Positions 51,193 through 57,218 are shown, numbered from the stretch's first letter. The stretch: 64,000 nt of DNA from Candidatus Mediterraneibacter intestinavium (GCA_019119205.1 DWXK01000006.1:62001-126000), one strand, 5' to 3'. A program made the numbers and translations. Notes: a model not told the origin generated them from the letters alone.

Positions 51193-52212
51193 TCAAATGG
51201 CAATGCTGTCCCGGTATTCTTTCGGCGTTTTACCAAGAGTTGCTTTAAACAGCCGGGTAAAATAATTTACATCTGAGATCCCGCAGTGCTGCGCGATAGT
51301 CTGGACCTGAAGCCGGGTGGAGTTCAGGAGAAAGACAGCCTGTTCGATCCGTTTCCCGTTTACATATTCTGTCAGTGTCTTCCCCGTCTCTTTTTTAAAC
51401 AGAGTTGACAGATAACTGGCATTGACTCCAAACTCTGCCGCCTGCGCTTTCAAGCTCAGGTCCGCAGTCAGATCCATATCGATCTGAGTCAGGACTTTTC
51501 TCACCAGAAGCGAATAGTCTTTCATAGAATGATTTGTCACAAGGAGACAGTATTTTCTCACCATTTCCTTTGCCAGAAGGCTCATCCCTTTCTCTGAGTT
51601 GAGCTGCTCGATCTTATGCGCAAACCTGGAAGAAAGTTCATCGATATGGATAGGATGCACATCCGCGCTCTCCACCGCTTTTCGCAGGAGTGTGTTCATG
51701 ATGATCAGATAGTTCTTCACATTTCTCAGCCGGTCCGGCGTCCGAAGCTCCAGCCAGTGCCCTGATCCGCTCAGAAGAGCCTCCGCCCTGTGGGTCTGCC
51801 CCTTTGCCACAGCCTGGATCAGACGGTTCTCCACCTCATACCGCTCTGCCAGTATCTGCATCATCTGCTGGGACTCCCCTTCTCCTCCGTCTTCTCTGCT
51901 GCCTGCTTCCGCTTCAACATCCAGGGAGATCCCGCTGTTTATATCCTGCAGTTCAAAGTTATCTATGCTTCCCCATATCCTCTCCCCGAATGTATTTACC
52001 ATGGAAAGGAGCACGCTTTCATCGTAGATCCGCGGCAGTCCGACGAAGAACTGTTCCAGCCGGCGGTAGTGCTTTTCCGGAAATGACAGATACTCCGCCA
52101 CATCATAGATCATCTTTTTCGTCACCTCTGTCAGCATGTACGGACCGATCAGGAAAAGATCCTGTCCTTTTCTTCCCGGTTCCGGCAGCCGGAACAGAAG
52201 GTATCGGTACAT
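51193..52212 (-). pseudogene. AraC-family regulator, apparently N-terminally truncated
   Basis: C-terminal HTH DLSLKAQAAEFGVNASYLSTLFKKETGKTLTEYVNGKRI...; recognisable sensor-domain homology starts only at about MYRYLLFRLPEPGRKGQDLFLIGPYML; upstream frame is antisense of the neighbouring gene. Confidence 0.6.
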
Positions 52213-52705
52213 GCACGCCGAACTGATCCTTCTTGAAGACCTGTTCCACATATCCATAGATGAACTCGTAGGCCGTGAGACAGCAGATACAGGCGCAGAG
52301 CCAGAGTCCGGGCTTCTCGCCCTGGGCGGGATCGCATCCGGCATCTTTTCCCTGGGCGGGATTTCCGCGGGTCTCTTCTCTTTTGGCGGACTGTCCGCGG
52401 GGCTTCTGCTTTCCGTCGGCGGATTCTCCGTGGGAACTGTCGCCATCGGCGGACTGGCTCTCGGGATCTTTGCCATTGGTGGCGGCGCCTTCGGAGTCTA
52501 TGCCCTGGGCGGAGCGGCAGTGGCGCAGAAGATCGCCGCAGGCGGAGCCGCGCAGGCAGCCATTGCCATTGGAGACGCAGCGAACGGCGAGATCGCCATC
52601 GACATAAATAATCCCGTCCCGCCATCTGTGATCCGGGACATCATCCTGGAAAAGTTTCCGGGGACATGGGATATCATCGTAGAAATCTTCTCTCATACCG
52701 TATAG
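52211..52705 (+). pseudogene. XRE-type protein lacking its HTH, with Gly-Gly hydrophobic repeat domain
   Basis: Begins in the end of an XRE domain (ELILLEDLFHISIDELVGRE), followed by LALGGIASGIFSLGGISAGLFSFGGLSAGLLLSVGGFSVGTVAIGGLALGIFAIGG...; no RBS. Confidence 0.6.
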
Positions 52706-52845: not shown

Positions 52846-55800
52846 TTACATTTCAAACAGGCTCATCTGATGCCAGTTCTCTTCTTTTTTCTTCTCCACA
52901 TTTTCCTCTTCCATCAATCCATCAGGAAGATTCTTAAGAAACTCTGACATTTCTCCGGATGTCGTAAGAAGCAGTTCCTCCTTCCCCCGTGTCATTCCCA
53001 CATAGAACAGCCGTCTCTCCTCTTCTCTGTCGCAGGGATGCTTTTCGCTCTCCAGCGGGATCGATCCCTGGTCCGCCCCATAGATAAATACAACCGGGAA
53101 CTCCAGCCCTTTGGAGCCGTGCAGTGTCATGATGGTCACAGCATCCGCAGTATATTTCTTCGTCCCGCAGCGCTTCAGATCGCTCTCCACTCCCAGACTG
53201 ACCGCATTCATAAACTCCGTCATTGTCTTATAGAACACTGCCATCTGAAGAAATTTCCGCATCGCCGGATCCTCAGACATCCCCATCTCTTCCATCCACT
53301 GCTCTATGAATTTCTGAGGTTTTTTCTTTTGATACAACGGTCTGAATTTCTCCGCAGCAGACCGGATCACCTCCCCGGTCATCTCGTTCCACTCCAGTTT
53401 CCAGAGCTGCTCCGCCGAACTTTTCATTGCCTCAATATCCTCCGGGTCTTCCAGATAACGGAAAAAGCAGAGACTGTCCTGCACCGTGCTCTCCTTCAGA
53501 AAGTCCTCCCGTCCTGCCACGATATAGGGAATGCTCTCTTTCTTCAGGCATTTTTCCACCAGTTCCGCCTGGTGATGGGTCCTGCACAGGACTGCCATCT
53601 CGTCGAATCCTCTTACTCTTCGCCCGTCCTGCTCCCACGCATTCTGATGGGCCTCCAGCATTCCGATGCCTCCGACCATGCGGTCGATCTCTTTCGCGAT
53701 AAAAATGGCCTCTCCCAGAGGACTGCCCGCACGGATCAGCCGGACCGGGGCATTGTCCGGACAGTTGGGATGGAGTGCCCGCTGTCCGCTGCTGCATGGC
53801 GCTTCGCAGGGCTCATTTTCCAGGAGTCTCTCATCCGAATCTTCTCCGGTCCCCTTCTCTTCCTGAGATATCACAGCCGTGGCTGCATTCAGGATCTGCG
53901 GTGAGGAACGATAATTTTCCTTCAGCGTCACCGTCTCAAGGTCACTGTATTCTTTCCTAAGTCTCTCAAAACATGCCGCGTCTGCTCCCCTGAATCCATA
54001 AATAGACTGGTCCGGATCACCGATCACAAACAACTCTCTGCCAGCACGGCTCCACAGTTTTACTAATCGGAACTGGACCGGATCGATATCTTGAAACTCA
54101 TCTACGAGCAGATAGCGGAACCTCTTTTCCCATCCCGCCGCAGCCTCGCCATTTTCAATCCGGCGTACCGTCCGAAGCAGAAGATCGTCAAAGTCCCACA
54201 GGTTCTTTTCCTCTTTTTTCTTCTCATAGAGATCCCATGCCTTTTTCCATTCCTTTTCCGGTATCATCTCCTCTGACAGCATCTCATCATTCTCACTACG
54301 TTCTGCTTCTGTCTCCGATTTGCATCTTGAGACCATCTCCAGGAACCGCTTTGCATTTATCGAGATCCCGCTCTCTACAACCGTCTCCTCCGCCAGCCTG
54401 CGCTGCTCCTCGTCGGTCATGAGTACAGGTTTCTCCCCCTGCGCTTTCAGGAAATCCAGACAGATAGCATGGAATGTACCGATCTGCAAAGCCCGGGCAG
54501 TCTGTTTCTTTCCGGTTTCCCGCTCGATCCGCTCCCGCATCTCGGCAGCTGCCTGGTTGGTAAATGTGACCGCAGTGATATCCGACGGCTTTACTTTCCG
54601 ATATTCCATCAGATAGCGCAGACGTGAGACCAGTGTCTTCGTCTTTCCCGTTCCGGGTCCTGCTTTCACGGCGATCCGGGGTGAAGTACAGCGTACGGCA
54701 TACGCCTGCTCCGGATTCAGGACCGGAGCAGACGGTTTCTTTGTCGGAATATTTTCCCGTCTCGACGTCCCGGTATCTTCCCGTTTCAGCGAGCGGGCCT
54801 CCTCCGTTTCCGGCGCAGGAGCATCTTTCGATATCTCTTCTTCAACTTCTGAACTCATTTCCGGCTTTCCTTCGCTGTCCCGTTCCTTATCTTTCCTTCT
54901 GTTCACAGGTACGGCTCCTGCTGCCGGCACACCAAGCATATCAAAAAAGTTCATCTGCCCTTCCGTGTTGTTCAGTTCCTCTGCGCTGAACAGCCTGATC
55001 ACGCCATACTCCCCGTCAAATCCCGGAATCCGCTCCACCTGACCGCTCCGGAGCCGTTCGATCCCTTCCGCCAGCCTTGTGCCTGCCGCCCGCCGGATCT
55101 CTTCCAGAGGGAGATTCCGCAGAATCTCGAATTCCGGTCCGAGCTGAGAAAGAATGCGTCGGTATTCCCTGTCCACCTTTTTGCCCGCCGCCGACGCTCC
55201 GACGGACGCCCCGATCACTTCCGGAAGTGGAACCAGGCTCTCAAACCTCTTTGCGTTTTTTCTCACATATCCTTCCTCCCGGTCAGCAAGTTCCTCCACC
55301 CGATGTGACACGCCGATCGTGATCTTCCTGCCGCACACCGGACATTTCCCGTTGTACTTCATGGTCTCGGAGGGCGTCAGGCAGAGATTGCATTTCCGGT
55401 GTCCGTCCATATGATACTTTCCTTCTTCCGGAAAGAATTCAATGGTTCCGTCAAGCCCTTTCCCTGTCTGGATCGCATCTGCCAGAGCGCCATAGGACAT
55501 GGGGATATCAAACAGATTCGCCTCCCGCCCCAGCTTTGCAGGCGAATGAGCGTCTGAATTGGAGATCAGCTGAAAACGGTCCAGTGCGGACACGCGCCAA
55601 TTCATCGGAGGATCCGAGGAAAGTCCTGTCTCCATCGCATGGATATAAGGCGTAAGGTCTTCGAAACACTCCTCCACCGTATCAAATCCGGAAAATGCGC
55701 CGAACAGAGAAAAATGAGGCGTCCAGATATGAGCCGGCACATAGACGGCGGAAGGACACAGTTCCAGGATGATCTCCAGAAGGTCATGGCAGTCCAGACC

Positions 55801-56217
55801 CAGGATGGGGCGCCCGTCCGAATGGATATTTCCGATCTGCTCCAGTTTTGCCGAGATCTTCTCCGCATCCTCCAGGCCCGGGAGCAGGATCAGGCTGTGA
55901 ACTTTGCGCACTTTCCCGTTTTTCTTGTAGATCGAGCTGATCTCTCCCGTGATGACAAAACGGGGGGACATCTCCCCCGGGACCTCACTGTCTCTGATCC
56001 GGTACTCCTCCTTCAGGACATAAAGCCCCTCCTCAGCCGGTTCCAGCTTCTCCGTCAGTTCCTCCCTCCATGCAGGGTGGGTAAAGTCTCCTGTCCCGAC
56101 GATATGGATCCCCTTTCTCCGCGCCCAGAGATCAAGATGCTCCGGAGTGCAGTCCTTACTCGTCGCCCTGGAATAGCGGGAATGAATATGTAAATCTGCA
56201 ATGTACATTGAAATCAC
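52846..56217 (-). CDS. EndoQ-like PHP/zinc-ribbon nuclease fused to UvrD-family (SF1) helicase
   Basis: N-terminus YIADLHIHSRYSRATSKDCTPEHLDLWARRKGIHIVGTGDFTHPAWREEL; zinc site CNLCLTPSETMKYNGKCPVCGRKITIGVSHRVEELADR; then VKAGPGTGKTKTLVSRLRYLM, LLVDEFQDIDPVQFRLVKLW, VIGDPDQSIYGFRGAD, TLHGSKGLEFPVVFI. Confidence 0.9.
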   Translation of the reverse strand: MISMYIADLHIHSRYSRATSKDCTPEHLDLWARRKGIHIVGTGDFTHPAWREELTEKLEPAEEGLYVLKEEYRIRDSEVPGEMSPRFVITGEISSIYKKNGKVRKVHSLILLPGLEDAEKISAKLEQIGNIHSDGRPILGLDCHDLLEIILELCPSAVYVPAHIWTPHFSLFGAFSGFDTVEECFEDLTPYIHAMETGLSSDPPMNWRVSALDRFQLISNSDAHSPAKLGREANLFDIPMSYGALADAIQTGKGLDGTIEFFPEEGKYHMDGHRKCNLCLTPSETMKYNGKCPVCGRKITIGVSHRVEELADREEGYVRKNAKRFESLVPLPEVIGASVGASAAGKKVDREYRRILSQLGPEFEILRNLPLEEIRRAAGTRLAEGIERLRSGQVERIPGFDGEYGVIRLFSAEELNNTEGQMNFFDMLGVPAAGAVPVNRRKDKERDSEGKPEMSSEVEEEISKDAPAPETEEARSLKREDTGTSRRENIPTKKPSAPVLNPEQAYAVRCTSPRIAVKAGPGTGKTKTLVSRLRYLMEYRKVKPSDITAVTFTNQAAAEMRERIERETGKKQTARALQIGTFHAICLDFLKAQGEKPVLMTDEEQRRLAEETVVESGISINAKRFLEMVSRCKSETEAERSENDEMLSEEMIPEKEWKKAWDLYEKKKEEKNLWDFDDLLLRTVRRIENGEAAAGWEKRFRYLLVDEFQDIDPVQFRLVKLWSRAGRELFVIGDPDQSIYGFRGADAACFERLRKEYSDLETVTLKENYRSSPQILNAATAVISQEEKGTGEDSDERLLENEPCEAPCSSGQRALHPNCPDNAPVRLIRAGSPLGEAIFIAKEIDRMVGGIGMLEAHQNAWEQDGRRVRGFDEMAVLCRTHHQAELVEKCLKKESIPYIVAGREDFLKESTVQDSLCFFRYLEDPEDIEAMKSSAEQLWKLEWNEMTGEVIRSAAEKFRPLYQKKKPQKFIEQWMEEMGMSEDPAMRKFLQMAVFYKTMTEFMNAVSLGVESDLKRCGTKKYTADAVTIMTLHGSKGLEFPVVFIYGADQGSIPLESEKHPCDREEERRLFYVGMTRGKEELLLTTSGEMSEFLKNLPDGLMEEENVEKKKEENWHQMSLFEM

Positions 56218-56492
56218 CTCTGTACTTTATCCTGATGTACTCAGTCAAAAATTTCCAGTTCCAATTTTAGCACAGAAAATGGGAAACCGCCATCGGCTCC
56301 TTTTGTTTGAGCTCACAGAAGGTTGCAGCCATGAGTTTTTTTACCTATAATGGAACTATTTATTAAAAGAAAAATTAACTACATCGCAAAACATAATATC
56401 AATATCTACAGCAGCGTTCCTGAATTTTTCTCAGGGACACTGTTCTTATTTTCGTCCATTCCACTCAGGAATATATCGCGTCCGAAGTGGAA

Positions 56493-56521: not shown

Positions 56522-56549
56522 GAGAACCGAATCAAGGAGGTTCTTCATT

Positions 56550-57218
56550 ATGAAAACGATCATGAAGCTGAATAGATCATTTTATGAAAGGATGTTCTGC
56601 TATATCGCCGGACTGCTCATCATGTCCGTGGGATCCAATCTGTTTTTGAAAGCCGCCCTCGGCGTGGCTCCGAGCTGCACCATCGCGCTCGCGCTTTCAG
56701 AGATTTTTCCTTCTCTCAGCTATGCAGTTTTTAATTTCCTTGTAAACTCGTTCCTGCTCCTCTGTGAGATCGCAGTGGTAAGAAAAATTGAAAAAAGGCA
56801 GGCCGTACAGCTTGTACTGACCTTCCTCTACTCGCTGTTTATCCAGTGGACAGCAGGTCCGCTACGTTTTATCACGGCAGACACCATGACAGCCAGAGTG
56901 GGATTAAGTTTTATAGCCTGCGCTGTACTTGCGGCAGGGATCTCATTCACGGTAAATTCCGGATTTGCGGTGCTTCCGTTGGAAGGATTTGTAGCAAGCC
57001 TTTCTGAAAAGACCGGGAAACCGTTCGGAACGGTTCGGATCTATACGGAGGTCAGTATCACAGTCATCTCCGGGACCGTATCCATCGTCTGCCTTGGGAG
57101 TATTTCCGTCGTCGCGATCGGAACTGTGATCGCTGCATTCTGTACGGGAACGATCACAAACCTCCTCTCCCGATTTTTTACGAGAGGATCTCTTCTTTCA
57201 CATGCCGCTACAGCCTGA
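56550..57218 (+). CDS. YczE/YyaS/YitT-type integral membrane protein
   Basis: About 6 TM; AGGAGG RBS; IAGLLIMSVGSNLFLKAALGVAPSCTIALALSEIF. Confidence 0.8.
   Translation: MKTIMKLNRSFYERMFCYIAGLLIMSVGSNLFLKAALGVAPSCTIALALSEIFPSLSYAVFNFLVNSFLLLCEIAVVRKIEKRQAVQLVLTFLYSLFIQWTAGPLRFITADTMTARVGLSFIACAVLAAGISFTVNSGFAVLPLEGFVASLSEKTGKPFGTVRIYTEVSITVISGTVSIVCLGSISVVAIGTVIAAFCTGTITNLLSRFFTRGSLLSHAATA

Follow-up and report, generated by a model that had tools for sequence, protein, structure and literature searches.

The stretch of DNA analyzed in this study (referred to as "the window") comprises 64,000 nucleotides of Candidatus Mediterraneibacter intestinavium (GCA_019119205.1 DWXK01000006.1:62001-126000), whose genome is 2.6 Mb in size and 82% complete. 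On the minus strand of the window, positions 52846 to 56208 form one uninterrupted open reading frame of 1120 amino acids plus a stop codon. The encoded protein carries an endonuclease Q (EndoQ) domain at its N-terminus and a UvrD-family helicase at its C-terminus, and as all domain matches lie in one unbroken frame, the single polypeptide proposed in the initial annotation is real at the level of the gene. That annotation had placed the translational start at a GTG (position 56217), three codons upstream of the ATG at position 56208. However, direct reading of the sequence reveals a ribosome-binding site, AGAGGTG (56215..56221, minus strand), 6 nt upstream of the ATG, and because of this good spacing the ATG is the more likely start. 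The closest loci to the fused gene are found in Mediterraneibacter (Lachnospiraceae), with the EndoQ domain of Candidatus M. norfolkensis being 96% identical to that in the window. The divergently oriented neighbor (56547-57218, plus strand) belongs to the DUF6198 membrane-protein family and is followed by a GFO/IDH/MocA oxidoreductase gene, neither having an apparent link to DNA repair.

Residues 1-407 (54988..56208, minus strand) make up the EndoQ domain, consisting of a PHP catalytic domain, a zinc ribbon and a C-terminal helical part. Residues 4-406 can be aligned over their whole length with PfuEndoQ (5zb8; phmmer E 5e-48, 36% identity), and Foldseek matched the AlphaFold model to the same structure with an E value of 6e-28 and a TM score of 0.84-0.85. 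They also match the whole of TIGR00375 (E 4e-52), although the score of 178 bits falls short of the curated cut-off (326.6 bits). As only 2 of 300 genomes sampled from the phylum reach this cut-off, it leaves out most bacterial EndoQ proteins too. All of the EndoQ hallmark motifs quoted in the initial annotation were found in the sequence. Incomplete PHP metal ligands were the weak point that this annotation itself had named, and comparison with PfuEndoQ showed that all nine (D5, H7, H9, D41, E89, H104, H160, D219 and H221) are present. In the alignment, E89, H104, H160 and D219 correspond to E76, H84, H139 and D193 of PfuEndoQ, the activity of which is abolished by mutation of E76, H84 or H139 (PMC8307549).

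Conservation of these residues was examined in 102 fused proteins originating from many families, 35 of which are distant relatives (54-74% identity in the EndoQ domain). PHP motif I, H7-I-H9 (56182..56190, minus strand), aligns with H8/H10 of PfuEndoQ and is invariant in this set. The base-selection pocket of PfuEndoQ, formed by His139, Gly169 and Ser171 (PMC8307549), is present as H160, G195 and S197, with H160 being counted both as a PHP ligand and as a pocket residue. The PHP ligands and the pocket residues are all invariant, not only in the 102 fused relatives but also in 14 relatives that carry no helicase. The zinc ribbon, CNLC...CPVC (residues 273-292; 55333..55392, minus strand), is a CxxC...CxxC site made up of C273/C276/C289/C292, of which the CP.CG site reported in the initial annotation is one half. 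C273, C289 and C292 are invariant in the 102 proteins, while C276 is kept in 90 and missing from the other 12. The fold, catalytic ligands, zinc ribbon and pocket are therefore the same as those of archaeal EndoQ (PfuEndoQ, 5zb8/7k30; TkoEndoQ). By analogy with these homologues, the fused EndoQ would be expected to nick DNA 5' of deaminated bases and AP sites.

The C-terminal part contains a UvrD/Rep-type SF1A helicase core (residues 497-1085; 52954..54720, minus strand). Residues 497-1084 gave hits to PF00580 (E 6.5e-67) and to UvrD_C (E 4e-41), and this half matches the solved structures of UvrD, PcrA and Rep with E values of 1e-59 or better, the AlphaFold model giving a TM score of about 0.7 against UvrD/PcrA. 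The full set of SF1A motifs claimed earlier for this part was recovered: the key residues of the Q-motif, Walker A/B and motifs III-VI are invariant in 102/102 fused proteins. These include K522 and T523 of motif I (Walker A, AGPGTGKT; 54640..54663), D703, E704, Q706 and D707 of motif II (Walker B, VDEFQD; 54088..54105), and R1074 of motif VI (YVGMTR; 52987..53004), all on the minus strand.

Although the fused helicase has all SF1A motifs in common with UvrD, PcrA and Rep, its scores are far under the equivalog cut-offs for each of the three. The possibility that it represents the PcrA orthologue was rejected, as it reached 321 bits against an equivalog cut-off of 911 and has no C-terminal Tudor-like region. 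Indeed, a separate and intact PcrA with its C-terminal extension is encoded on another contig of the same genome. The two proteins differ in the 2B region (from motif IVa to motif V), which is 151 residues long in the fused helicase versus 202 in PcrA, and in the length of the sequence after motif VI (50 versus 150 residues). Reportedly, Rep lacking 2B is relieved of auto-inhibition, and the reduced 2B domain of the fused helicase might have a similar effect. UvrD-type motors translocate in the 3'-to-5' direction, and the fused helicase presumably has the same polarity. In AddA/RecB, a single chain likewise contains both a nuclease and a UvrD-family motor. However, these enzymes act at double-strand ends and their nuclease is of the RecB type, whereas the nuclease here appears to be a PHP-fold, lesion-specific nickase.

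The two halves are joined by a charged linker (residues 415-495; 54724..54966, minus strand), as had been noted, which is in addition predicted to be disordered (AlphaFold pLDDT <50). The linker and the C-terminal tail are both poorly conserved (column conservation of 0.10-0.31 for the linker, its motif excepted), apart from two conserved islands that had been overlooked. The first, GQMNFF (residues 417-422; 54943..54960, minus strand), occupies a fixed position after the EndoQ domain throughout the fused set, with Q418 being kept in 99/102 proteins. The second, QMSLF (residues 1114-1118; 52855..52869, minus strand), is located two residues from the C-terminus in a segment with pLDDT <50 (residues 1106-1117); Q1114 is kept in 101, L1117 in 95 and F1118 in 99 of the 102 proteins. 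Both motifs were first spotted within the window's own family and then checked on the 35 distant fused proteins, in which the Gln and the Phe of the tail motif are each present in 34/35. The distant C-terminal versions read QLSLF, QISLF, QVSLF, QASLF, QHRLF and similar, and the versions after EndoQ read GQLSFF, GQISLF, GQAALF and GQGSLF. In the window's own family, position 4 of the first motif is F (QMNFF) in place of the usual L.

Both islands resemble sliding-clamp-binding motifs, for which the bacterial consensus is QL[S/D]LF or QxxLF, and in B. subtilis PolC, a QLSLF at the C-terminus mediates clamp binding (PMC12309361). We therefore regard them as candidate motifs through which the protein may bind the beta clamp. 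A QxxLF at the end of an open reading frame was found in 0/1321 background ORFs taken from the loci retrieved. Similarly, the last 25 residues of 64 stand-alone EndoQ proteins, drawn from both clades, contained no QxxLF-like motif, even when a looser pattern was included, although clamp-like motifs have been reported in some bacterial EndoQs (PMC4858679). PCNA stimulates archaeal EndoQ and is bound by it with a Kd of 55 nM through a C-terminal PIP box, which sits just past the domain, after the same domain end as the first motif (PMC4858679). The link between EndoQ and the clamp is thus an idea that is already known. However, archaeal EndoQ is a single domain of about 420 amino acids with a PCNA-type PIP box and no helicase, while the motif of the fused protein is of the bacterial type. 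As far as we could find in the literature searched, paired clamp-like motifs in an EndoQ-helicase fusion are new.

With both domains complete and their catalytic residues invariant, a single old fusion lineage, and two conserved clamp-like motifs, we favor the notion (with a probability of roughly 0.6) that the protein is a clamp-tethered repair enzyme that nicks and unwinds DNA at uracil, hypoxanthine, xanthine and abasic sites. Incision by the EndoQ domain immediately 5' of the lesion would produce a 3' end that can be extended and a downstream strand with the lesion at its start. At this nick, the attached 3'-to-5' helicase could then load on the intact strand and displace the lesion-bearing 5' end. 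A clamp-bound polymerase would extend the 3' end, with repair being completed by a flap nuclease and a ligase. The two motifs, one for each catalytic domain, may bind the beta clamp and thereby place the enzyme at replication forks or fresh repair sites. Known EndoQ enzymes do cut immediately 5' of the lesion, and the ligatability of the resulting end has been tested for TkoEndoQ (PMC4357722). A helicase has been proposed to act after EndoQ in archaea, where repair of the nick was called elusive (PMC8438529), and nicking followed by unwinding in the fused protein plausibly agrees with that proposal. The "compact excision-repair machine" envisaged in the initial annotation therefore holds in part: both domains are complete and nick-then-unwind is plausible, but a second incision or removal of the flap, as well as synthesis and ligation, would require other enzymes, and several relatives keep EndoQ after losing the helicase.

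The fusion is common rather than unique. Of about 740 genomes searched within the one phylum surveyed, at least 60 encode the fused architecture. An ORF of fused length that matches EndoQ was present in 19 of the 149 other genera sampled from the family; the class sample yielded it in 11 of 292 genomes, and the phylum sample in at least 31 of 300. Reviews describe EndoQ as mainly archaeal, single-domain and rare in bacteria (Bacillus, Desulfovibrio) (PMC8438529), and our full-text searches, with the subscription literature mostly outside their coverage, found no published description of an EndoQ-helicase fusion. The architecture, assembled from known families and common in sequence data, thus seems to be undescribed. 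A large bacterial clade in which nickase, helicase and clamp-like motifs are fused makes the step after nicking testable in a single protein. If our reading is correct, common gut bacteria would possess a glycosylase-free route for the repair of deaminated bases, and EndoQ would seem to have acquired its connection to the sliding clamp independently, through a PIP box in archaea and through QxxLF in bacteria.

In a phylogenetic tree, the fused-type EndoQs form one clade (support 100/100) with a long branch to PfuEndoQ and to canonical bacterial EndoQ (Bacillus pumilus/subtilis type), which belongs to the same family, TIGR00375, but has no helicase. Fourteen stand-alone EndoQs nest within the fused-type clade and the tree requires eight changes in total, so that the simplest reading is a single ancient fusion followed by repeated loss of the helicase. 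In close Mediterraneibacter relatives (L056, L064, L066, L068, L069 and L074), the helicase and both motifs are gone but EndoQ is kept, and the stand-alone EndoQ gene is directly followed by an S1-like (cvfB-type) gene. A programmed frameshift between the two domains was considered and rejected: the relatives' EndoQ ORF ends at residue 407-426, and the DNA past the stop codon is intergenic and then belongs to another gene, indicating that the helicase is truly absent. Since these close relatives do without the helicase and the motifs, coupling of the two activities is not essential. As the relatives without a helicase have also lost the first motif, this motif either has its function in the fused enzyme and not in EndoQ by itself, or was simply co-deleted. 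A few genomes (G544, G604, G439 and G714) carry a stand-alone plus a fused EndoQ, or multiple copies.

The repeated loss of the helicase with retention of EndoQ would also fit a scheme in which the two halves do separate jobs and are fused for shared recruitment, EndoQ being a stand-alone nickase for deaminated bases, whereas the helicase would be a clamp-associated motor with general tasks, for instance in mismatch repair or the clearing of forks, and would not act on EndoQ nicks. The long disordered linker is in keeping with such a division of labor, as is the unequal divergence of the halves: in the 35 distant relatives, identity to the window is 54-74% for EndoQ versus 34-48% for the helicase. 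However, the fusion and both clamp-like motifs have been kept together through a large clade, and there is no obvious need for another generic motor, given the full separate PcrA in the same genome. We consider this scheme unlikely.

The distribution of other deamination-repair enzymes bears on the substrate of our proposed nick-and-unwind enzyme. Uracil-DNA glycosylase (UDG) is present in 144 of 150 family genomes, so that uracil repair does not depend on the fused protein, and a role as a family-wide replacement of UDG was rejected on the same grounds. EndoV was found in only 4 of the 150 genomes. The second UDG-superfamily protein in the genomes examined is the deoxyinosine glycosylase TIGR04274, which is common in Lachnospiraceae. 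Using genomes at least 90% complete, this glycosylase was detected in 5 of 19 EndoQ-carrying genera versus 72 of 108 others (Fisher p = 0.0016, kinship ignored). In a separate phylum sample covering all EndoQ types, it occurred in 10 of 152 carriers versus 29 of 148 non-carriers (p = 0.001, kinship again ignored); for carriers of the fused type only, the figure was 2 of 31, which is not significant (p = 0.11). The rarity of the glycosylase among EndoQ carriers hints that the two overlap in hypoxanthine repair.

Bacterial MutL has a nicking activity that is activated by the clamp, and a MutL-like nicking of mismatches is one of several ways in which the EndoQ half could have a different or narrower substrate (AP sites only or oxidized pyrimidines being others), in which case "deaminated base repair" would be a mislabel. 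The separate, long-branched clade of the fused-type EndoQs and their score under the TIGR00375 cut-off could be read along these lines. On the other hand, all ligands are invariant, as are H160, G195 and S197 of the pocket, the anticorrelation with deoxyinosine glycosylase points toward hypoxanthine, and archaeal and Bacillus EndoQs have one and the same substrate range (PMC8438529). A changed substrate is, in our judgment, improbable. Going further in the opposite direction, one polypeptide with two clamp sites, one for each catalytic domain, might occupy both halves of the ring and run a glycosylase-free pathway for the excision of hypoxanthine and uracil from the clamp, handing the nick to its own helicase. 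If so, this pathway would replace deoxyinosine glycosylase and EndoV in many Clostridia-type gut bacteria. It is a possibility that we put forward tentatively, with the odds somewhat against it.

The genomic surroundings offer little that is constant, as the fused loci show neither a conserved operon, be it for repair or otherwise, nor a defense island. The arrangement seen most often is that of 22-23 Lachnospiraceae loci (L037-L116 flanks), in which a cvfB-like gene and dnaE, encoding the polymerase III alpha subunit, lie directly downstream on the same strand; this arrangement is absent from the window. Control by LexA (SOS) was rejected: boxes with at most one mismatch were found upstream of 8 of 105 genes, when about 10 were expected from shuffled sequences. 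A mobile origin was likewise rejected, as no relatives were found in the phage, plasmid and viral-contig collections.

The gene's patchy presence within the family (25 of 150 genomes) could be taken to suggest an anti-phage system, related to Gabija-type nuclease-helicases, that attacks phage DNA containing uracil or modified bases. GajB of Gabija (GajAB) is a related UvrD-type helicase, and the helicase half matches the GajB models in PADLOC (E 1e-80). EndoQ cuts dU-containing DNA, and an antiviral role has been suggested for bacterial EndoQ (PMC8307549). However, the GajB matches reflect only the common UvrD fold, and the fused loci have no GajA (OLD-type nuclease) partner, no conserved neighbor and no defense context. 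Moreover, the lack of relatives in the above collections speaks against such a system, and the clamp-like motifs together with the frequent dnaE linkage in relatives indicate a function in replication or repair. We therefore hold an anti-phage role to be very improbable.

On the side of the gene opposite to the DUF6198 gene lies a glycine-rich repeat ORF (52136-52705, plus strand), which is overlapped by an AraC-family ORF (51193-52476, minus strand). The glycine-rich ORF retains only the tail (FHISIDELVG) of a helix-turn-helix regulator and looks like a remnant; in six relatives, an intact version of this regulator adjoins the fused gene.
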